Positions 1,712 through 30,721 of a stretch of 47,878 nucleotides of DNA are shown here, piece by piece. Under the pieces are notes generated by a model. That model searched no databases and was not told the DNA's origin. It saw only the letters and a program-made list of their open reading frames with translations. Within the stretch, counting starts at the first letter, position 1. Each line of letters opens with the position of its first letter. The position numbers and the translations under genes are program-made. The DNA is from Patescibacteria group bacterium (GTDB lineage Bacteria; Patescibacteriota; Patescibacteriia; Patescibacteriales; JAQTRU01), in assembly GCA_028716725.1 (NCBI GenBank), contig JAQUPG010000012.1:1-47878 (forward strand), written 5' to 3'.

Positions 1712-1817
1712 AAATTCAAATCTACGAAGGCATTCAAATGCTTCAAATATTTTTTAAAAAACAAGAGATGGTATAGTTATTTGAGGCATTTGAATGTTGT
1801 TATATTAATTCGAATTA
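1712..1817. repeat. Palindromic intergenic element, copy 1
   Basis: Spacer between infA and rpmJ. A 19-nt arm at 1731-1749 pairs with 1778-1796 (one mismatch). The whole spacer, including ATTCAAATCTACGAA at the left and GTTATATTAATT at the right, recurs before rpsC at 36639-36747. The loops differ between copies. Confidence 0.75.
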
Positions 1818-1822
1818 TTTTT

Positions 1823-1936
1823 ATGAAAGTCAGAGCGAGCGCAAAAAAAATCTGCAAAGACTGCAAAGTCGTCCGGCGCAAGGGCCGGGTGCGGGTCATA
1901 TGCAAAAATCCGAAACATAAACAAAGACAAGGATAG
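1823..1936 (+). CDS. rpmJ: 50S ribosomal protein L36
   Basis: A 37-residue protein found by direct reading. It starts [20 protein letters not shown] and has the zinc-ribbon ligands C11, C14, C27 and H32, so it is the zinc-binding form. It sits between infA and rpsM as in most bacteria. The coding strand follows the palindromic element with only a few bases between them, and there is no clear Shine-Dalgarno site. Confidence 0.95.
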
Positions 1937-1985
1937 AGTGATGACAAGTTGACAATTAACATTTAACATTTAATTTTTTTAAGGT

Positions 1986-2378
1986 ATGGCGGTAAGAATA
2001 GCCGGAGTAACAATTCCGAACGAAAAAAGGGTGGAGATTTCTTTAACCTATATTTTTGGCGTTGGCTTAGCCGCTTCCAATAAAATTTTAAAAATGACCG
2101 GCATAAGCCCGGACAAAAGAGTAAAGGATTTGACGGAAGAGGAAATAAATAAATTAAGAACCTTGATAGAAAAACAGCATCGGGTAGAAGGGGATTTAAA
2201 AAGAGAAATAGCCGGCAATATCAAACGCTTAAAAGAAATTAGCAGCTATCGGGGGATAAGGCACACTAAGGGCCTGCCGGTAAGGGGGCAAAGAACCAAG
2301 ACTAATAACCGGACCGTTCGGGGCAATGTAAAGAAAACCGCCGGTTCTGGCCGAAAAATGGCGGCGCAAAAAACATAA
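1986..2378 (+). CDS. rpsM: 30S ribosomal protein S13
   Basis: 130 residues, close to the usual length. It shows the S13 start [20 protein letters not shown], the helix-two-turn-helix region and the C-terminal signature [21 protein letters not shown], which contacts 16S rRNA and P-site tRNA. AAGG lies just before ATG 1986, one of the few recognisable ribosome-binding sites here. The spacer before it holds repeated words of the type AATTAACATTTAACATTTAA. Followed 18 nt later by rpsK. Confidence 0.97.
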
Positions 2379-2396
2379 CGCATAACGACTATCATT

Positions 2397-3002
2397 ATGA
2401 GTGAAGATACTAAGAAAGAAAAAAAAGAAGAAAAGAAAGCAGTTGAGAAGGCTGCCGATATTAAGGTTGGGGAAAAAGAGGATAAAAATTTTAAAATGGA
2501 AAGAGAATCACCGCCAGAGCGGGACGAGGAAAAGAATCTGTTGGGCGGCGGCGAGACTGACGAATTGCCGGAAGATGTAAAGAAAAAATTAGCGGAGAAA
2601 AAAGAAGAAAAAGCCAAAAAGAAATTTAAGAGAAAGAAAAAAGCGCCGAAAACCGTAAAATCCGGCCGGGCTTATGTTAAAGCCACTTATAACAATACGA
2701 TTGTAACCTTAACTGATTTAACCGGGAACGTTCTTTCCTGGGCCAGCGCCGGTATGGCCGGCTTTAAGGGGGCGAAAAAATCAACCCCTTACGCCGCCCA
2801 GATTATAACTAAAATCGCGGTCAGCGCCGCCAGGGAAGATTTCGGGCTGGAAGAAGTCATGGTTTTTGTAAAAGGCGTGGGCACGGGCCGGGAATCCGCG
2901 GTCAGAGCTTTAAATGCCAATGGTTTAAATATTACAGCGATAAAAGACATAACGCCGGTTCCGCATAACGGGTGCCGTCCGAAAAAGCCAAGGAGAGTGT
3001 AA
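2397..3002 (+). CDS. rpsK: 30S ribosomal protein S11 with long charged N-terminal extension
   Basis: The S11 body starts near residue 84 ([19 protein letters not shown]) and runs to the typical end [18 protein letters not shown]11 shapes the platform of the small subunit near the mRNA exit. The first 83 residues are a Lys/Glu-rich, low-complexity extension not found in ordinary S11 (about 129 residues). The extension is in frame with an ATG directly after rpsM, and no internal ATG lies near the body start, so it seems to be translated. Confidence 0.95.
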
Positions 3003-3072
3003 AATAACAATTGACTTTTGACAGTTAACAATTAACAAATAATTTGATAGAAAATTATAAATTGAATCAAAT

Positions 3073-3711
3073 ATGGGGAGAAATTTAGACGCAAAATGCA
3101 AACAATGCCGAAGATTGGCGGAGAAATTGTTTTTAAAAGGTGAACGTTGCTATTCGCCTAAATGCGCTATGGTGAAAAGAAATTATCCGCCCGGCTTTCA
3201 CGGGCAGAAAGGCCAAAAAAGAAGGCAGAGCGATTATGGGATGCAGCTGGCCGAAAAGCAAAAAGCTAAAAAGCAGTATAATTTATTGGAAAAGCAATTT
3301 AAATTAACTTTCTTAAGGGCGAAAAGAAAACCGGGCGATGCCAGCGAAAATTTGTTAAAGACATTGGAATTGAGGCTAGATAATGCGATTTACCGGCTAG
3401 GTTTTGCCAGTTCCCGAACCCAAGCGAGGCAGCTGGCCAGCCATGGCCATATTGAGGTTAACGGCCGGAAAGTAAATATACCCTCCTTTGAAGTTAAAGA
3501 GGGGGATATTATAAAGATCAGGGAAAGAAGCAAAAAATATAAATTTTTTAAGGAATTGCCGGAAAGATTGGTCCGCCAGAAAGATAATGTCCCGAGCTGG
3601 CTTAATTTAGATATAAAAGAGCTTGCCGGGAAAATTTTACACGAGCCAAGAACCAGCGACATCAAAGCGAATGTAAACGCCCAAATAATTGTTGAATATT
3701 ATTCAAAATAA
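3073..3711 (+). CDS. rpsD: 30S ribosomal protein S4
   Basis: 212 residues, full length. It nucleates 30S assembly. The N-terminal zinc site is C9, C12, C26 and C31 (KCKQC, then CYSPKC), so this is the zinc form. The S4 RNA-binding domain lies around residues 103-165 (LELRLDNAIYRLGFASSRTQARQLASHGHI, broken here only for description). In many bacteria S4 is the translational repressor of this operon, which is not testable from sequence alone. The start follows a spacer rich in TTAACAATTAAC words. Confidence 0.97.
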   Translation: MGRNLDAKCKQCRRLAEKLFLKGERCYSPKCAMVKRNYPPGFHGQKGQKRRQSDYGMQLAEKQKAKKQYNLLEKQFKLTFLRAKRKPGDASENLLKTLELRLDNAIYRLGFASSRTQARQLASHGHIEVNGRKVNIPSFEVKEGDIIKIRERSKKYKFFKELPERLVRQKDNVPSWLNLDIKELAGKILHEPRTSDIKANVNAQIIVEYYSK

Positions 3712-3764
3712 TTTAAAAATTAATTTTTCTGCCTGGTTAATACAGGCAAGAGATAATTAATAGT

Positions 3765-4568
3765 ATGCAAAACATTGCCTTGCCCCAAAAAATAGATTTC
3801 AAAGACGGAGAAAAGCCTAATCAGGGTTTAGTTATTATAGAACCCTGCTACCCCGGCTACGGCATGACTTTGGGCAATTGCTTAAGGCGGGTTTTGCTTT
3901 CTTCGCTGCCGGGTGCGGCGATTACGGGGGTGAAGATTAAGGGCGCGGATCATGAATTTATGGCTCTGCCGCATATCAAGGAAGATGTTTTGCAGATTAT
4001 TTTAAATTTAAAAAAATTAAGGGTGAAAGTGTTTTCCGAGGAAGAGGTAAAGCTGGAACTGGACGTCCATGGGAAAAAGGAGGTAAAGGCGGGCGATATT
4101 GCCAAGAACGCGCAGGTAGAAATAAAAAATCCTGATTTGGTTTTAGCCCATATTACCGACATGGCCGGCAGCTTAAATATGGAAATTTATGTAAGCCAGG
4201 GGCGGGGGTATAGGCCGGTGGAAAACATAGAGAACGAAAATAAGGAGATTGGTTATATGGAAATGGATTCTGTTTTTTCTCCGGTTTTTTCCGCCAGCGT
4301 AAAGGTGGAAAATACCCGTGTTGGAAAAATGACTAACTGGGATAAGCTGATATTGGATATTATCACCGACGGCACTATTACGCCGCAGGAAGCTTTTGAG
4401 CAGGCCGTGGCCATATTAATAGAGCAATTTAACTCTCTTACCGAGAAAGAAAAGGAAGCGGTCATTAAAGAAGAAAAATTAATTCCGGAGGAAGAAAAAA
4501 GGGGAGAAGACAAGGATGTAACGTCGGAAGAACCAAAAAAGAAGAGAGGAAGACCAAAAAAGATTTAA
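3765..4568 (+). CDS. rpoA: RNA polymerase alpha subunit without alpha-CTD, ending in an AT-hook
   Basis: Alpha dimerises and seeds assembly of RNA polymerase. Residues 1-230 form the alpha-NTD: RxxxLSSLPGAAITGVKIKG, and the later QEAFEQAVAILIEQFNSL helix. E. coli alpha has 329 residues with a helix-hairpin-helix CTD that binds A+T-rich UP elements. Here the protein is only 267 residues and that domain is gone. It is replaced by a charged linker and a terminal KKKRGRPKKI, whose RGRP at residues 261-264 is the core of an AT-hook, a minor-groove A+T binder. The stop codon is clean, followed by a spacer and rplQ, and no separate CTD gene is seen nearby. Confidence 0.95.
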   Translation: MQNIALPQKIDFKDGEKPNQGLVIIEPCYPGYGMTLGNCLRRVLLSSLPGAAITGVKIKGADHEFMALPHIKEDVLQIILNLKKLRVKVFSEEEVKLELDVHGKKEVKAGDIAKNAQVEIKNPDLVLAHITDMAGSLNMEIYVSQGRGYRPVENIENENKEIGYMEMDSVFSPVFSASVKVENTRVGKMTNWDKLILDIITDGTITPQEAFEQAVAILIEQFNSLTEKEKEAVIKEEKLIPEEEKRGEDKDVTSEEPKKKRGRPKKI

Positions 4569-4578
4569 GATTTTACTT

Positions 4579-4596
4579 GCCTGCCGGCAGGCAGGG
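4579..4596. repeat. G+C-rich palindrome
   Basis: GCCTGCCGGCAGGC, a perfect 14-nt palindrome in the rpoA-rplQ spacer. A related hairpin, CCTGCCT/AGGCAGG, lies inside the adhesin gene at 6642-6662, which suggests a small dispersed repeat family. Confidence 0.6.
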
Positions 4597-4605
4597 ATTT
4601 AACGT

Positions 4606-4956
4606 ATGCGACACAGGAAAAAAGGAAAAATTTTAGACAGAAAAAAGGGACCGAGGGAAGCGATGCTTAAAAACTTAGCTTCCAGCGTTTTAATATACGA
4701 GAAGGTAAAAACCACGCAAGCCAAGGCTAAAGCCGTAAAGCCTTTGGTTGAAAAATTGATTTCTGCGGCCAAAATCGGCGATTTAACCGCCAGAAGAAAA
4801 TTAATTGAGGCTTTGCCGCAGCCGATGGCGATTAAAAAAGCTATGGAAGTCTTGGGCGCCAAATATAAAGACAGAAAGGGCGGTTATACGCGGATTGTAA
4901 AAATAGGCAAAAGGCAGGGAGACGGAGCCGATATTGTGCAGATAGAATTAGTTTAA
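4606..4956 (+). CDS. rplQ: 50S ribosomal protein L17
   Basis: 116 residues, matching the bacterial core. Signature MRHRKKGKILDRKKGPREAM followed by the SVLIYEKVKTTQAKAKAVKPLVEKLI helix region (split across the domain) and YTRIVKIGKRQGDGA near the end. L17 lies near the polypeptide exit tunnel. Usual position after rpoA. The spacer to rplM holds AAAAGTTTATAAAGTTTA word repeats. Confidence 0.97.
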   Translation: MRHRKKGKILDRKKGPREAMLKNLASSVLIYEKVKTTQAKAKAVKPLVEKLISAAKIGDLTARRKLIEALPQPMAIKKAMEVLGAKYKDRKGGYTRIVKIGKRQGDGADIVQIELV

Positions 4957-4978
4957 AAGTAAAAAGTTTATAAAGTTT

Positions 4979-5344
4979 ATGACTAAAACTGAAAGAGAAT
5001 TGCATAAAATTGACGCTACTGGCAAAGCGGTCGGGCGGCTGGCCAGCCAGATTGCGGTAATACTGCGGGGGAAAAATAAGCCGGGTTGGGAGCCGCGGCT
5101 GGACAACGGGGATATGGTTGAAGTGGCCAATATTGATAAATTAAAGTTTACCGGTAAAAAATTGGACCAAAAGAATTATTTCAGATACTCCGGCTATCCG
5201 GGAGGCTTAAAGACGGAAAGCATGAAAAAATTAAAAGAATCGCGGCCGGACGGAGCGGCGGAAATTTTAAGGAGAGCAGTCCGAGAAATGCTGCCGCCGG
5301 TTAAATTCCGCGGGGACATGCTTAAGAGATTGATTATTAGATAG
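4979..5344 (+). CDS. rplM: 50S ribosomal protein L13
   Basis: 121 residues, shorter than E. coli L13 (142). Diagnostic parts: KIDATGKAVGRLASQIAVIL, then FRYSGYPGGLKTESM and RRAVREMLPP. L13 is an early-assembly protein of the large subunit. It pairs with rpsI, 17 nt downstream, as in almost all bacteria. The lost residues are at the C-terminus. Confidence 0.96.
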   Translation: MTKTERELHKIDATGKAVGRLASQIAVILRGKNKPGWEPRLDNGDMVEVANIDKLKFTGKKLDQKNYFRYSGYPGGLKTESMKKLKESRPDGAAEILRRAVREMLPPVKFRGDMLKRLIIR

Positions 5345-5361
5345 TTAAAAAGCTAGATACT

Positions 5362-5796
5362 ATGGTAGAGAAAAAAATAACTAAAGAAGACGAGCCGATA
5401 AAGTTCAAGGGTAAATATATAAAAGCAATCGGCCGGAGAAAAACTTCTTCCGCCCAGGCAAGGTTGTATAGAGACGGCCGCGGGCTTATTGTAGTTAACG
5501 GTTTAAAAATAAATCAATATTTCAGCGAAGGCGAAGCCGCGGTTATCCTCCAGCCGCTTAAATTAGTCGGCCGGATAAAAGATTTTGATTTTTCCGTCTT
5601 GGTCAGAGGCGGCGGAAAGAGCGCGCAAGCCGAAGCGGTAAGGCACGCTGTCACCAGGTCTTTAATCGCTTTTGATAAAGAGATGAAGCCGGCTTTAAAA
5701 GTTAAAGGATTCTTAACCAGAGACGCCCGCAAGACAGAGAGAAAGAAACCGGGGTTGAAAAAGGCCAGACGAGCTCCGCAATGGAGCAAACGTTAG
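5362..5796 (+). CDS. rpsI: 30S ribosomal protein S9
   Basis: 144 residues with a short N-terminal extension. KAIGRRKTSSAQARLY and LVRGGGKSAQAEAVRHAV are diagnostic, and the C-terminus ends SKR, the tail that touches P-site tRNA. The same reading frame continues after the TAG (5794-5796) for 42 sense codons to a TAA at 5923-5925 and ends again in DPQWSKR. The S9 tail is therefore present twice in frame. The TAG sits in the loop of a hairpin formed by CCGCAATG and CATTGCGG. The first stop is taken as the gene end. Confidence 0.95.
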   Translation: MVEKKITKEDEPIKFKGKYIKAIGRRKTSSAQARLYRDGRGLIVVNGLKINQYFSEGEAAVILQPLKLVGRIKDFDFSVLVRGGGKSAQAEAVRHAVTRSLIAFDKEMKPALKVKGFLTRDARKTERKKPGLKKARRAPQWSKR

Positions 5797-5925
5797 TTTG
5801 CGACATTGCGGCCGAAGGGTTATAGGGAAAAGGATTTTCCCTATCCGTTTTCGAGGGAAGGAAGATTAAGGAAACCGGGAGGTTTCCTTAAGGAGCGAAG
5901 CGACCCGCAGTGGTCAAAACGATAA
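5797..5925 (+). other. In-frame duplicate S9 tail carried by a hairpin array
   Basis: 42 codons in the rpsI frame without a stop, ending ERSDPQWSKR then TAA; compare ARRAPQWSKR at the true gene end. Two further hairpins lie inside: ATAGGGAAAA/TTTTCCCTAT (about 5820-5842) and AAGGAAACC/GGTTTCCTT (about 5868-5890). The sequence CCGCARTGG repeated at both ends looks like a duplication around an inserted palindromic element. Readthrough is possible but there is no positive evidence for it. Confidence 0.6.
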
Positions 5926-5953
5926 ACTTAAAAATAAAATAATATAAAAAAAG

Positions 5954-5978
5954 CAAGGAAATTTTTCCTTGTTTTTTT
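5954..5978 (+). terminator. Intrinsic terminator after rpsI
   Basis: CAAGGAA/TTCCTTG hairpin (5954-5971) followed by seven T. It closes the infA-rpsI transcription unit. Confidence 0.85.
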
Positions 5979-6370
5979 GCGTTCTAAATTTTTTCAAGAT
6001 GATAAAAGGATAACGGAAGTTTTTTATTGATTGTGGATAACTTTTAACCCGCACTTTCTAAGAATCGCATACTAGAAAGAAAAGGCATTATGGATTGATA
6101 TTTTTAATTCAAATATGGGCCCGAGAACAGAAAATTGTATAATTTATTTTTATCTAAAGTAAGCTAATTTTTTTAGAAAAAACTTGATTTTTGCGCTTTT
6201 ATTAAAGGCAAATAACCGCCAGGCAAATAATCTTTTGAAAAAATTCCTGGTTTATGTTTTAAAATGTTGATAATTTGTGGTATAATTGTTAATAAGAATA
6301 TATGATAATAGACTGATAAGATAAAACTTAAGATTAGTTGCCTGTTTTCAGGTAGACAAAAGCAATCCCC
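5979..6370. other. Gene-free region upstream of the giant adhesin
   Basis: No ORF with coding character was seen on either strand. The region is A+T-rich and contains two TATAAT boxes (6138-6143 and 6281-6286). A small CCTG-TTTT-CAGG palindrome lies about 30 nt before the adhesin start and is a possible operator. No recognisable RNA gene was found. Confidence 0.5.
6278..6286 (+). promoter_or_regulatory. Extended -10 promoter of the adhesin gene
   Basis: TGGTATAAT: a TGn motif directly before a consensus TATAAT at 6281-6286. No good -35 lies at 17 nt, as expected for extended -10 promoters. The predicted leader is about 78 nt. Confidence 0.65.
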
Positions 6371-9300
6371 ATGCTTAATCAAAACAAGGAGGAATATAAG
6401 AAATTAATTCCTCTGCGGCGTTTAGCCAAAGAAGTTCCATATAAGGTTAATTACCTTTCTCTTTTAGTGCAGAGAGGAAGATTAAAGGCGGAAAAAATCG
6501 GCCGGAATTATTTTACGACGCGGGAATGGTTTAATGAGTATTTGGAAATGCATGCCCGGGATGAAAAAATAGAGAAACTGGAGGAAGGACGGGCAGAGCT
6601 GGTAGAGGTAGAGAAAGCGGGAGAACAAATCCCCCCTGCCCCCTGCCTACCGGACAGGCAGGCCTTTATCAAGGGGGAGGAAAAGAGGGGGCAAGAATTG
6701 GATTTGTCCGTTCTGGAAAAAACGGATAAGGAAAATGAAATTTTAAATAATTGGAGCGGGCGGGCGAACGAAGAAAAAGAGAAGATGATAAGCGAGATAA
6801 AGGACGCTTCTTCTTTAGCGGAAAAAAATTTGAAAACTTTTTTTGCTTCAGTAAATAATTTAGTTTCTAAATCTTGGCGAAAAAAATTGGCAGTCATTGG
6901 CTATGCCGGCTTAGTGGCTGCTTTTTGTTTTTCTATTTTAGCGCCAAACGCTTCCGCTTCTTTTGCCCAGATGCTTGATAAAACTTTAGCCGCTCCGGTT
7001 GGGGCGACGCAGGCAATGGTCAGGGCGGCCGGACAAGCCGTTAAAGAAACGAGTCGGATAATAGCTAAAAGCCCGGTTGGCCAGATTGCCCGCGGCCGCG
7101 TTGCCGGCACAAGCGAGAAGGCCGGTGAAAATTCGGTTGTTGATAAAGTTTTAGCTTTGGCTGATAAAACGGCGGAGAAGAGCGGCGAGGCCTGGGAAGC
7201 GGTTAAATCAGGTACGGCGGAAATTTTTTCCGATTTAGCCCAGGCGCAAAAAGATTTGTCAATAAAGCTGAATGACAAAGTGGCTCGTTTAACTATTGCC
7301 GGCGCCGGCCAGGTAAAGGGAGTTTCCGAAGCCGGGGGAATAAAATTGGCGCAATTAGCGGATAAGGTCGGCGAAACTAATCAGAATGTTCAGGATTATG
7401 CCCAGACAAGCAAATATAGTTTTTTAAAAGAGCTTTCCCGGTCAGCCAATGCTTTGTCTAATATTTATACTAAGGTTGTAGATTTTTTAACCCCCGATTC
7501 TTTAAAGAAAAGCTCAGAACCGGAGGAAAAAGTGGTGGAGACACCGGTTAAAGAAGAAAGCCCTTCGGTCCTTCAACAAGGCTCAGGTCAGGGAACCACT
7601 CAGACTTCTTCTCCCGCTTCTAAAGTTACTACCCCGGCCAAGAAGCCAACGACAGGCACAGCTCCTTCAACTTCAAGCACCCAGACCCCGGCGGCTTCTA
7701 CGGCTGCGGCTCCGGCCCAAATCATTGTCCAGCCGCAGGCGACGGTTTTATCATCTTCGGCCGGGGCAACCTCGGTCGGGGGGAGTTTATCAGTTCAGGG
7801 AGCTGCCACCTTTAATAATAATTTAACTGTCAAAGGCACAATTTACGGCGGGAGCCCGGTGAAAATCGCCGGCGGTCTTAACGTCAGCGGTCCGGTCGAA
7901 TTTTCCGACACGGTTTCTATAGCTTCCTCCTTAAGCGCCGGCAGCTTAAACGCTTCCAGCGGCTCAATCAGCGGCAATCTTGATGTTGGCAGCGGTATCA
8001 ATACTAATTTTTTAAATGTGGCCGGATCTTTATCCGCCAAGTATGCCTCAATTACTAATTTAAGCACGAGCGGTTTCCTTACCGGCAATGGCGTTTCCGC
8101 CGGAGAAGGCGGCTTATCCACTTCCGGCGGCTTAAATGTGTCAAAGAGTAAGTCAGGCGATATCGTTAGCGTTACTGACGGCTCAAATCAGGTTTTTGTC
8201 ATAGCGGACGGCGGTAATGTCGCTATTGGCACAAGCACTCCAAGGCATAAATTGGATATTGACGGTAATTTAGGCTTATCTGCCAGCGGATATATAAATT
8301 GGGGCATGACCGACGGTACGACTGGCTATGGCCTTCGGGACTTAAGCGGCACTTTGCAGTTTAAAAATTCAGGCGGAGCCTGGGCAGATATCCCGAGCGC
8401 AACCTGGTCTACTTCCGGCTCTGACGTTTATTATACAACCGGCAATGTCGGCATCGGCACTTCCACGCCTTATTCTAAACTTTCGGTTTGGGGCGCGGGA
8501 GCAGGAACCAACCGCCTTTTTGAGCTCACCAATTCCGCTTCTACAACTTTAGCCAGTTTTCTTGAAGATGGCACTGGATATTTCCTTGGTAACATCGGTA
8601 TTGGATCAACTTCGCCAGCTGCACCGTTAACGGTTAACACATCATTTAATGACGATTATTGGGGTGTTGGAACTTTTGTCAATTCATATGCGGGCGCAGT
8701 AGATACTCTTGGAGTGTATGGAGAAGCGACTCCTGCGGATAATTATGGCTATGGCGGATATTTTGTGGGCGGATATATCGGCGCCGCGGGAGAAGTTACA
8801 GGATCCGGGTCTAATAATTATTATGGCCTTTTTGGAGACGCTATAGGATCCGGAGATGGAAATTATGTGGGCGTTTACGGAGGCGCTACCAATACAAATA
8901 CAGGAAGCAACGTTGGCGGTTATTTTGAAGCCAGTGATGGCGCTGAAAACGCCGGGGTCGCTGCCTATGTTCTTGCCGGGGATAACAATTATTCCCTATA
9001 CGCCTATGGCGGCGCTAAAAGTTATTTTGAAGGAAACGTCGGCATCGGCACAACCACTCCTTACTCCAAGCTTTCTGTTTGGGGAGACGGAACTAATCCG
9101 ATTTTTGAGGCCGTAGATAATGCTTCCTCTACGAAAATGATAATTTTAAATAACGGATATGTGGGGATTGGGACGGCAGTTCCGGCTTCATTATTAGACG
9201 TAAATTCTAAATTTAACATATTAAGCACCGGCAACGTTGGTATTGGCACGACTTCGCCAATGTCTAAACTCTCGGTTACTTCTAATTCCGGGTCGCAATT

Positions 9301-11332
9301 AACTTTGGCTTATGACGAAACTAATTACGCTAATTTTACGGTAGGAAGTGACAGCAGTTTAACGATTGCTCCGGCTAATAATGCGACGACAACAATTGGC
9401 GTCGGGGACGAAGCTTTGCGGGTTGATTCTTCGGGAAATATTGGCATGGGCACAACCACGCCTAAATCAAAGTTATCGGTTTTAGGCGGAGTTGATATTA
9501 ATAGAGGCGTTGTGGTAGCGGTCGGCAGTATTGATATTAGCGGTTCTTATAAAACTAACGGCGCTGATTACGCCGAATATTATTATACTATAAATACGGA
9601 TTTAGAGCCGGGCGAAGCGGTTTGCGTTGACGTAGAAAGGGAAAATGCGGTCAGAAGATGTGAGCGGGCCGCGGACGATAATTTAATGGGCATAGTTTCT
9701 ACCAAGCCGGCGATTGTCGGTAATGGCGGACCGGGCGAAAATGGGATAGAGAAAAGTTTAAATAACCATTACGCGATTATCGGCATGCTTGGGCAGGTTC
9801 CGGCCCGCATTACTGCCGCGAACGGCGAAATCCGCCCGGGCGATTCCTTAACTTCAGCTTCCCGGCCCGGTTACCTTATGCGCGCTTCCGCCGGAGATTC
9901 CACGGTGGGTGTAGCCTTAGAGGGGCTGGCGGGTGATGAAGAATCTATAAATACCGGAGTGGTTAACGTTTTAATTTCCCGCCGGAACAAGAGCTTGACG
10001 GTTGAAGAAGTGGAAGAAAAAGTAACGGAAAGGATTGCTAATATGGAGATAGAGGATGAAGTAAATATTTTAATTGCTAACGCGATTGATAATTTAAACT
10101 TAAATGATGAAATTACCGAAGTGGTTGACCCGAAGATGCTCCTTTTGGAAACAAAATTAACGGTTAAAAGCGATGACCTGAATTCCCGAATTGTTAAAGT
10201 GGAAGAGGATATAAAAACCGTGGCCGAGTCTTTAACCAGCCTAAGGTCGGACATGACGGGCCTGAACGAGATGATTAGCTCTGCCCGGGCTGACATTAAA
10301 TCCCTGCAGGACGATATTTTTCTTTCCGATTCAGCCTCGCCTTTATCCGGCAGTTTAGTGGTTGATGAAAACGGAAATATTAAACTGGGTTCAACAAATC
10401 CCCCCAACCCCCTTTATCAAGGGGGAGAACCGGTGGTAGAAATTGTTACGGCTCCCAATACTAATCAGACCGCTTTTGTGATTAATCAAGTTGGTTCGGG
10501 CGATATCGCTTCCTTCCGCGTTAATGACGTGAGCATTTTAAATATCGGCAATAATGGTAAGGTTTCCATTGTTGGCACTTTAGCCGTGGACGGCAGGATT
10601 ATGGCCTGCTCCGGTTCGTCCTGCGGTATTGCTTTAGAAGCGGCCGTTGACGAAACCGCCGGTGATATTGGGGTAGAAGGAAAAGTCGTGGCGGGCGCGT
10701 TTGAGGGCTATTGCGAAGACGGGTTTGTCTGGGTGCCGGGCAGCGCTAAGTATGGCACTTTGCCCGGATTCTGCGTAGCCCAAGAAAAAGCGCGCAATGA
10801 TCTGGATGAAATTATTACTGATGTTTCCCAGGGCGAAGCGCAATTGGCTTGCCAGGGCTTAGGAGATGGCTACCACCTGATTTCAGAAAATGAATGGTTG
10901 ACTATGACCGAGAATATTATAAAGGTGGGAGCTAATGATACGGACGAGGTTCTTTCGGGCCTGCAGCTGGCAACCGGCCGGGGAGAAGGCGCCAGCAGTA
11001 CGGTCTATACTTTGGCGAACGGCAATATAGTTTATGAATTGGCCGGGGAAACAGGGGAATGGACAAATGAAACTATAACCGGAAAAGGCTGTCCGGAATT
11101 GGCTGGCGACGGCTGGCAGGAATATTATAATGTTTTGGATTATAAGGGATTGGCGATTGCCCCGCCTTATTATTTAAGCAATAGTGATAATAATATCGGC
11201 AGAATTAAAGTTGGCTCGAGCGATGAAACTTTGCGCGGTTTTGTCCGCGGTGAAGGAGGAGTTTATAGCTTAGACTTGTCTAAGGCGCCAACCGTGGCTG
11301 ATGAGACGATCGGTTTCAGATGCGCGCGGTAA
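6371..11332 (+). CDS. Giant surface protein: N-terminal HTH, membrane anchor, tail-fibre-like repeats, lectin-like C-terminus
   Basis: 1653 residues. Residues 13-58 resemble an excisionase/MerR-type helix-turn-helix (LAKEVPYKVNYLSLLVQRGR, then KIGRNYFTTREW). A single membrane segment lies at about 172-194. The exported part has a Ser/Thr/Pro/Ala-rich linker (about 375-455) and then at least seven VGIGT-type motifs (about 614, 690, 740, 889, 929, 954, 1022), as in phage tail-fibre necks. A DYAEYY-started domain (about 1065-1200) resembles the self-cleaving tail-spike chaperone family, a coiled coil spans about 1209-1317, and a terminal domain ends GFRCAR like FGE-sulfatase/C-type-lectin folds. 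Two G+C palindromes interrupt the gene. Probably an adhesin; the HTH role is unknown. Confidence 0.8.
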   Translation: MLNQNKEEYKKLIPLRRLAKEVPYKVNYLSLLVQRGRLKAEKIGRNYFTTREWFNEYLEMHARDEKIEKLEEGRAELVEVEKAGEQIPPAPCLPDRQAFIKGEEKRGQELDLSVLEKTDKENEILNNWSGRANEEKEKMISEIKDASSLAEKNLKTFFASVNNLVSKSWRKKLAVIGYAGLVAAFCFSILAPNASASFAQMLDKTLAAPVGATQAMVRAAGQAVKETSRIIAKSPVGQIARGRVAGTSEKAGENSVVDKVLALADKTAEKSGEAWEAVKSGTAEIFSDLAQAQKDLSIKLNDKVARLTIAGAGQVKGVSEAGGIKLAQLADKVGETNQNVQDYAQTSKYSFLKELSRSANALSNIYTKVVDFLTPDSLKKSSEPEEKVVETPVKEESPSVLQQGSGQGTTQTSSPASKVTTPAKKPTTGTAPSTSSTQTPAASTAAAPAQIIVQPQATVLSSSAGATSVGGSLSVQGAATFNNNLTVKGTIYGGSPVKIAGGLNVSGPVEFSDTVSIASSLSAGSLNASSGSISGNLDVGSGINTNFLNVAGSLSAKYASITNLSTSGFLTGNGVSAGEGGLSTSGGLNVSKSKSGDIVSVTDGSNQVFVIADGGNVAIGTSTPRHKLDIDGNLGLSASGYINWGMTDGTTGYGLRDLSGTLQFKNSGGAWADIPSATWSTSGSDVYYTTGNVGIGTSTPYSKLSVWGAGAGTNRLFELTNSASTTLASFLEDGTGYFLGNIGIGSTSPAAPLTVNTSFNDDYWGVGTFVNSYAGAVDTLGVYGEATPADNYGYGGYFVGGYIGAAGEVTGSGSNNYYGLFGDAIGSGDGNYVGVYGGATNTNTGSNVGGYFEASDGAENAGVAAYVLAGDNNYSLYAYGGAKSYFEGNVGIGTTTPYSKLSVWGDGTNPIFEAVDNASSTKMIILNNGYVGIGTAVPASLLDVNSKFNILSTGNVGIGTTSPMSKLSVTSNSGSQLTLAYDETNYANFTVGSDSSLTIAPANNATTTIGVGDEALRVDSSGNIGMGTTTPKSKLSVLGGVDINRGVVVAVGSIDISGSYKTNGADYAEYYYTINTDLEPGEAVCVDVERENAVRRCERAADDNLMGIVSTKPAIVGNGGPGENGIEKSLNNHYAIIGMLGQVPARITAANGEIRPGDSLTSASRPGYLMRASAGDSTVGVALEGLAGDEESINTGVVNVLISRRNKSLTVEEVEEKVTERIANMEIEDEVNILIANAIDNLNLNDEITEVVDPKMLLLETKLTVKSDDLNSRIVKVEEDIKTVAESLTSLRSDMTGLNEMISSARADIKSLQDDIFLSDSASPLSGSLVVDENGNIKLGSTNPPNPLYQGGEPVVEIVTAPNTNQTAFVINQVGSGDIASFRVNDVSILNIGNNGKVSIVGTLAVDGRIMACSGSSCGIALEAAVDETAGDIGVEGKVVAGAFEGYCEDGFVWVPGSAKYGTLPGFCVAQEKARNDLDEIITDVSQGEAQLACQGLGDGYHLISENEWLTMTENIIKVGANDTDEVLSGLQLATGRGEGASSTVYTLANGNIVYELAGETGEWTNETITGKGCPELAGDGWQEYYNVLDYKGLAIAPPYYLSNSDNNIGRIKVGSSDETLRGFVRGEGGVYSLDLSKAPTVADETIGFRCAR

Positions 11333-30061: not shown

Positions 30062-30604
30062 ATGCAGAACCAATTACAAAAAGCCATTAATTTAGCGGAA
30101 ATTACCGGCGATAAAATAATTGTGATTGACAGTTCAAAGCCGAGCAGCGCTTTTGTGGTTATGAAGCTGGATGAATACGAAAAGTTTGTTTTAGGCCATA
30201 ATGAATTAAGGAGCTTGACAGAAGAGGAACTACTTGATAGAATAAATCGTGATATAGCCATTTGGAAAAGCGAGAATGATGAAAAAGTTGAAGGGGATAA
30301 AGAATTTTTAGATAAGAGGAAAGAAGAAATTTCGCCTTTTTCCTATAAGAGTTGGATGGATAAAAAAGACAGGAATGATTTTGAAGAAGATATTTTTTTT
30401 GATGAGGATGAGAAAGATGAAGATATGTATTATTATGAAGATCCTTTCAGTGGAATAGAATTAGACGACGGACCGGAAGAAGATAATTATCAGATTCCTG
30501 CTCATGAGACAGATAATAATAAAAATAAGTTTAGCAATAATTGGGAAATACCTCCGGCCATAAAAGACAGCGCGGAAGAAGTTGTAAAAGACGTTCCATT
30601 CTAA
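30062..30604 (+). CDS. Hypothetical acidic protein between fusA and tuf
   Basis: 180 residues from ATG 30062 (a GTG at 30044 lies in the leader hairpin). The N-terminal 80 residues look folded: LQKAINLAEITGDKIIVIDS, then AFVVMKLDEYEKFVL, which recalls Phd/YefM-type antitoxin strands, then LTEEELLDRINRDIAIWKSE. The rest is strongly acidic and disordered (DEDEKDEDMYYYEDPF). No toxin gene is next to it, so it is not called an antitoxin. Its own promoter and its position in a translation-factor cluster suggest a role tied to growth or translation. Family not recognised. Confidence 0.6.
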   Translation: MQNQLQKAINLAEITGDKIIVIDSSKPSSAFVVMKLDEYEKFVLGHNELRSLTEEELLDRINRDIAIWKSENDEKVEGDKEFLDKRKEEISPFSYKSWMDKKDRNDFEEDIFFDEDEKDEDMYYYEDPFSGIELDDGPEEDNYQIPAHETDNNKNKFSNNWEIPPAIKDSAEEVVKDVPF

Positions 30605-30611
30605 ATAACAA

Positions 30612-30700
30612 AATAACAAAATAATATAAAAATTAAATAGCTTAAACAACAAAGCGCTAAAAATTATTTTATTATTTTATTTTTATATTATTTTATTATT
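30612..30700. repeat. Spacer palindrome before tuf
   Basis: 22-nt arms at 30612-30633 and 30679-30700 pair with one mismatch. Both arms carry short AATAACAAAATAAC-type word repeats. Confidence 0.75.
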
Positions 30701-30721
30701 TAATTAAGTATTAACAAATGA

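Follow-up and report, generated by a model that had tools for sequence, protein, structure and literature searches.

Tyrosine integrases are known to target the 3′ ends of rpsI and of tRNA genes and a few 5′ gene ends (PMC4701971). ICEs, IMEs, genomic islands, and prophages with such integrases share these targets (tRNA 3′ ends, the rpsI 3′ end, and rarely 5′ ends) with the small element described here, and they also share with it a restored gene end, a partial native copy at the far end, empty sites, and tandem copies (PMC4701971, PMC9897764). However, they are kilobases long, whereas the element measures about 110-170 bp, is without genes or an integrase, and has a conserved folded core with an inverted piece of the target beside it.

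Two further kinds of small DNA element resemble it in other respects. Integron attC sites are short and folded, keep structure over sequence, and can form arrays, as described for attC (PMC2727003); in contrast to them, the element has target-specific arms and uses many tRNA genes as sites, and no integron platform was seen. By inspection, the attC R′ box GTTRRRY with a complementary R″ is absent (GTTAGTT at the first hairpin fails the comparison, and the right end reads GCGAC), and attC identity was rejected on this ground. MITEs, REP/BIME sequences, and Rickettsia palindromic elements are, like the element, small, non-coding, hairpin-rich, and dispersed. Unlike these, it lacks a short duplication of fixed size; long direct repeats specific to the target flank it at gene ends, and its arms match the target. 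Instead of the terminal inverted repeats and fixed short duplication of a DDE-transposon MITE, we found repeats of 16-66 nt from the target gene, and an IS200/IS605-type origin is at odds with the duplicated target end and with the lack of any link to Y1 transposases among the genomes compared.

The locus lies in the window, that is, the whole 47,878-nucleotide stretch of Patescibacteria DNA analyzed here (contig JAQUPG010000012.1). A small structured element without genes has been inserted at the rpsI 3′ end (5797-5904); it belongs to a family that is spread across Patescibacteria at the ends of tRNA and ribosomal genes.

The doubled S9 tail and the inserted segment

The functional copy of rpsI (ribosomal protein S9), recognized by its open reading frame and a Pfam Ribosomal_S9 match (2.4e-41), occupies 5362..5796 on the plus strand, as do all parts of the element given below; the gene is present in 54 of 60 relatives. 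It now ends in the left tail, CCGCAATGGAGCAAACGTTAG (5776..5796; PQWSKR and stop), which was brought in by the element, and its TAG stop is followed in the same frame by 42 open codons (5797-5922) that close in the right tail, CCGCAGTGGTCAAAACGATAA (5905..5925; again PQWSKR and stop). The Ser codon is AGC in one tail and TCA in the other. A sequence-only reading of the window had described exactly this: an S9 C-terminus present twice in one frame, 42 open codons before the second PQWSKR, and different Ser codons that spoke against a recent exact copy. All three observations held, the tails at 5776-5796 and 5905-5925 exceeding chance in shuffles and the codons differing only synonymously. While about 1 in 100 shuffles equals the tail match of the window itself, the match is 18/18 in the nearest relative as well as in another family of the order, and no shuffle equals it there. 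A recent tandem duplication of the tail was rejected, as the codons differ and do so synonymously only. Further downstream, GCAAGGAAATTTTTCCTTG and a T run (5950..5980) form the probable native transcription terminator, identified from its sequence and from the alignment with a third species of the genus (G002), which has it in common; it lies distal to the displaced tail.

The insert (5797-5904, 108 nt) is folded and without genes, its longest stop-free stretch being 36 codons, and its three spacer hairpins, H1, H2, and H3, have a folding z of -5.5. It begins with an inverted tail piece, T′ (TTTGCGACATTGCGG, 5797..5811), which in the predicted fold pairs with the left tail to give hairpin H1 (5776-5811), with a GTTA loop and tandem G-A mismatches. 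The first stop had been placed in the loop of this hairpin, which is correct for its T and A but not for its G, which is paired. H1 has the same form in the nearest relative (G001), with weaker versions in three other genomes (G032, G209, and G714). The remainder is a conserved, gene-free core (5811..5904) that scores 71.6 bits with an arm-free covariance model of 101 positions (R2, see below) and shows covariation. It contains hairpin H2 (ATAGGGAAAA GGA TTTTCCCTAT, 5822..5844), hairpin H3 (TTAAGGAAACC GGGA GGTTTCCTTAA, 5866..5891), and the conserved right end motif GGAGCGAAGCGAC (5892..5904), directly 5′ of the second tail. The general layout is thus the gene end T, a terminator in some cases, T′, the core (H2, H3, and GGAGCGAAGCGAC), and T again.

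In 77 distinct sequences, H2 and H3 covary, and all of their base pairs (21 of 21) show compensatory changes on both sides. Pairing is kept in 96% of alignment cells versus 71% in shuffles. The former value profits from the fitting of the alignment to the model, but it falls to 59-69% when the partners are shifted by one base. As counted from the alignment, G-U pairs make up ~3% of H2 and H3 pairs versus 5.6% in tRNA stems at the same loci, a weak hint that the folding may be that of DNA rather than RNA.

Several other repeats and palindromes were noted. Dispersed repeats of the form GTCATTGCGAGGAGCGAAGCGACGAAGCAATCT (G000 C10 and C8; L038 1501 and L039 1501) contain the 13-mer GGAGCGAAGCGAC of the element's right end, but they differ from the element in layout and location and are without tail duplication. 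In the window itself, an in-frame palindrome, CCCTGCCTACCGGACAGGCAGGC (PCLPDRQA), lies at 6630-6665 in an open reading frame of 1,653 amino acids and is perhaps another short palindromic insert. AT-rich inverted repeats of the AAAATAAAATAATATAAAAATAAAATAATA type occur between genes throughout the genus, as at 30603-30706 in the window and in intergenic regions of G000-G002.

Occurrence in relatives and targets of the family

The element was found at the rpsI 3′ end in five genomes (G000, G001, G032, G209, and G714), while a second tail is missing from most of the other rpsI loci retrieved. In the nearest relative, of the same genus (G001; JAQTSG010000004.1, L031), two tails likewise enclose the insert, which is 92.6% identical to that of the window, compared with 83.6% for rpsI and 72% for rpsI third codon positions. 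The frame there is interrupted by an in-frame TAA and frame-shifting indels; hence, no protein extension of 42 codons is conserved. In a genome of another family (G032), two tandem units alternate with three tails (tail-E-tail-E′-tail), the frame is broken, and the units are out of frame. The sequence-only reading had allowed that the second tail might be a chance feature with no counterpart in relatives, or a wrong assembly. The former is contradicted by the second tails in these two genomes, and assembly error is excluded because the same arrangement recurs in independently assembled genomes. A comparison of the rpsI 3′ region among relatives, proposed in the same reading as a search for an empty site, yielded one: rpsI of G181 is a clean empty site, and that of G209 is occupied. 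The third species of the genus (G002; L003, about 1940-2200) was rejected as a clean empty site: its AT-rich flank is a repeat found throughout the genus, and its rpsI tail occurs a second time, around another pair of hairpins. The hairpins of this pair, GGCAGAATC..GATTCTGCC and GCAGTC..GACTGC, are dispersed repeats in this genus, and the pair may be a second type of element using this hotspot.

Across the five genomes, all codon differences between the two rpsI tails (11 of 11, e.g., AGC/TCA and CGC/AGA) are synonymous, with a joint chance of ~4e-9 under unconstrained change; for this codon reading, a one-base insertion in the right tail of G032 was set aside. The stops are TAG in four of five left tails and TAA in all right tails. 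These synonymous-only differences mean that both copies were once real S9 ends, the right one being the displaced native end, now out of use, and the left one having arrived with the element. This assignment goes beyond the earlier proposal that a palindromic element had entered at the tail codons and the tail had been restored, a proposal that now finds agreement in the rpsI ends of five genomes, in many tRNA ends, and in empty sites elsewhere.

R1, a covariance model built from the two nearest units, matched G032 and a copy in G039, where the arms copy a tRNA-Ala 3′ end and not rpsI. We then used R2, built without the arms from five units in a hand-made structural alignment (N as filler and a fourth hairpin, H4, of G032 cut out). 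R2 matched 41 of 380 genomes of the class at E ≤ 0.1, with up to eight copies per genome, and across the phylum 24 of 380 genomes at E ≤ 0.01, 16 of them outside the class; these counts, from genomes that are mostly drafts or MAGs, are lower bounds because the large searches used stricter filters, and the E-values are rough, the model having been built from few sequences. Against Rfam at the curated score, only tRNAs reach the threshold, and identity with an Rfam family was rejected as the element matches none. Three core patterns found no match among IMG/VR viral contigs, and we found no description in open-access papers of a tRNA-targeting or palindromic element of this kind in the phylum.

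In 57 of 76 copies, the direct repeat across the core is longer than in any of 50 shuffles. The repeats span 16-66 nt and belong to the target gene. Among the 76 copies examined, the left repeat copy lies inside a same-strand tRNA gene, of many isotypes, in 45. For 50 copies, a same-strand tRNA lies <260 nt upstream, and the distance from tRNA to core is mostly 51-68 nt; if 1% of copies are assumed to fall there by chance, P is about 1e-80. Many repeats cover the tRNA from the T-loop to its last base, some extend into the terminator, and a terminator often stands between gene and core. Other targets are the 3′ end of a gene whose product ends in GGCPAPVCNF and, for reversed copies of the element, the 5′ ends of rplK and lepA. 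A clean empty site was also found at a tRNA: the tRNA-Arg of G309 runs straight into the flank that is found 3′ of the right copy in G359. Tandem arrays occur in the family as well.

The arms follow the target. The right copy fits its own tRNA above every other tRNA in 80% of 50 elements, and T′, which spans the junction, has a median rank of 2% against its own tRNA among other tRNAs. Core identity, on the other hand, is 72.3% within a genome across different tRNAs versus 61.3% at the same tRNA in other genomes, and the nearest core is in the same genome for 18 of 33 copies (shuffle mean, 1.5; maximum, 10). Since cores are most alike within a genome across tRNAs, copies appear to have spread between targets while their arms changed.

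Possible modes of insertion

A conserved gene end that is hit and restored, flanking repeats, and empty sites are all found here as in elements of the tyrosine-integrase type, but no integrase is encoded in the 108-nt insert; therefore, the element would at most be a non-autonomous member of that type. We consider it likely, with mobility taken from the comparison of genomes, that it is a site-specific integrative element, minimal and non-coding, that is probably mobilized in trans. Because 108 nt without genes leave no other source, the recombinase would have to come from outside, from a phage, a plasmid, or the host. Such an enzyme would recombine the gene end carried by the element with the one in the chromosome, which would restore the gene and leave the element flanked by direct repeats; tandem arrays would result from repeated rounds. 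Hairpins and T′ arm together probably form a folded recombination site, in which T′ might, as a guess from the anatomy, give a single-stranded or cruciform (extruded) element a duplex copy of the target sequence. Presence in genomes did not single out a partner enzyme. Tyrosine recombinases (PF00589) number 1.98 per genome with the element and 1.95 without it (P 0.57), with one such gene each in G000 and G001, and Y1 transposases (Y1_Tnp) occur in 24 of 40 genomes with the element and in 23 of 39 without it, none being in G000. Neither enzyme is thus linked to the element in these genomes. What also speaks against this explanation is that T′ and covarying hairpins are foreign to ordinary attachment sites.

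These same features could be attributed to an RNA- or target-guided insertion, with T′ as the guide, as in bridge-RNA insertion or intron retrohoming, and with a reaction that copies the target end so that the arms match the gene hit. The complementarity of T′ to its own target across the junction, the spread of cores across tRNAs within a genome with arms matching each target, and the strong covariation are all in its favor; nevertheless, we regard it as unlikely. The left rpsI tail carries codons other than those of the native tail and was therefore brought along, not copied at insertion; direct repeats of 16-66 nt are not a known feature of bridge-RNA or intron insertion; and the search for guide-dependent enzymes covered Y1 transposases. 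Compensatory changes in 21 of 21 base pairs, a site just 3′ of highly expressed genes, and the terminator often present between gene and core would also suit a structured RNA that functions in processing, termination, or regulation at the 3′ side of tRNA and ribosomal-protein transcripts and was kept by selection and duplicated in place. Such an RNA would hardly account for the patchy spread with clean empty sites in sister species, the targets that differ by genome, the tandem arrays, or the opposite-orientation copies at rplK and lepA starts, and the low G-U share (~3% vs 5.6% in nearby tRNA stems) adds a weak hint of DNA folding; we give this reading only a slight chance.

Still less probable is a fold-back replication error, although the order of tail, inverted tail, and direct tail, in which the inverted piece pairs with the tail, is the pattern of template switching, and strand switching would leave inverted and direct tail copies with filler DNA. 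A common covarying core occurs in dozens of unrelated genomes and targets, and a core family cannot stem from independent local errors, which refutes this as the sole cause; it could nonetheless be the maker of the T′ arm. Readthrough of the stop codon into a longer S9 with the same functional end, which the sequence-only reading had offered as its second option, is scarcely credible by now. The window's 42-codon frame is indeed open and ends in PQWSKR. However, the insert of G001 has the in-frame TAA and indels, the units of G032 are out of frame, the DNA layout is retained in the remaining rpsI cases, and conservation concerns a fold with compensatory changes, not a peptide; a conserved extension frame, as in programmed readthrough, was consequently rejected.

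The site-specific element moved in trans thus remains the reading we prefer. Beyond it, we tentatively raise the possibility, which we would not put at even chances, that these sequences are a new class of Patescibacteria mobile DNA: gene-free folded elements with direct and inverted target copies, re-aimable at tRNA or protein genes, either by an attC-like folded site whose arms rebuild the target duplex or by guide-directed insertion.

Neighboring mobile DNA and meaning for Patescibacteria

Larger DNA lies beside some copies. An integrated inovirus-like element with Zot, ORF2/G2P Rep, a tyrosine integrase, and a 27-nt att repeat is present in G255 (L169, about 1800-9580); it uses the same tRNA-Val end as the mini-element and sits exactly between tRNA-Val and the mini-element. 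In G016 (L162, 9345-18515), ~9 kb separate tRNA-Asn from a core copy, with genes for a C5 methylase, an HNH nuclease, Vsr, a glycosyltransferase, and NUDIX; this may be a cargo-carrying form or a later insertion. A dispersed subfamily, with TTGTATCGGAAT...ATTCCGATACAA flanks in several copies, lies in frame in a 454-aa cysteine desulfurase-like gene (L163, 753-2117; G416) and apparently also inside an lgt-like gene (L153; G402), where its position in a coding gene resembles that of Rickettsia palindromic elements.

Little has been described of the mobile DNA of Patescibacteria, which make up a very large, mostly uncultured share of bacterial diversity. Elements of ~110-170 bp that land at tRNA and ribosomal gene ends without breaking genes would rank among the smallest site-specific integrative elements, and such a family would account for many stray tRNA and gene-end fragments. 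It raises the question of how a gene-free sequence finds and matches its target. The elements also mark attachment sites used by integrated phages of these bacteria: one genome has the inovirus-like element at the tRNA end that the mini-element occupies. In another, the stretch from tRNA to core contains cargo, for example a restriction system.
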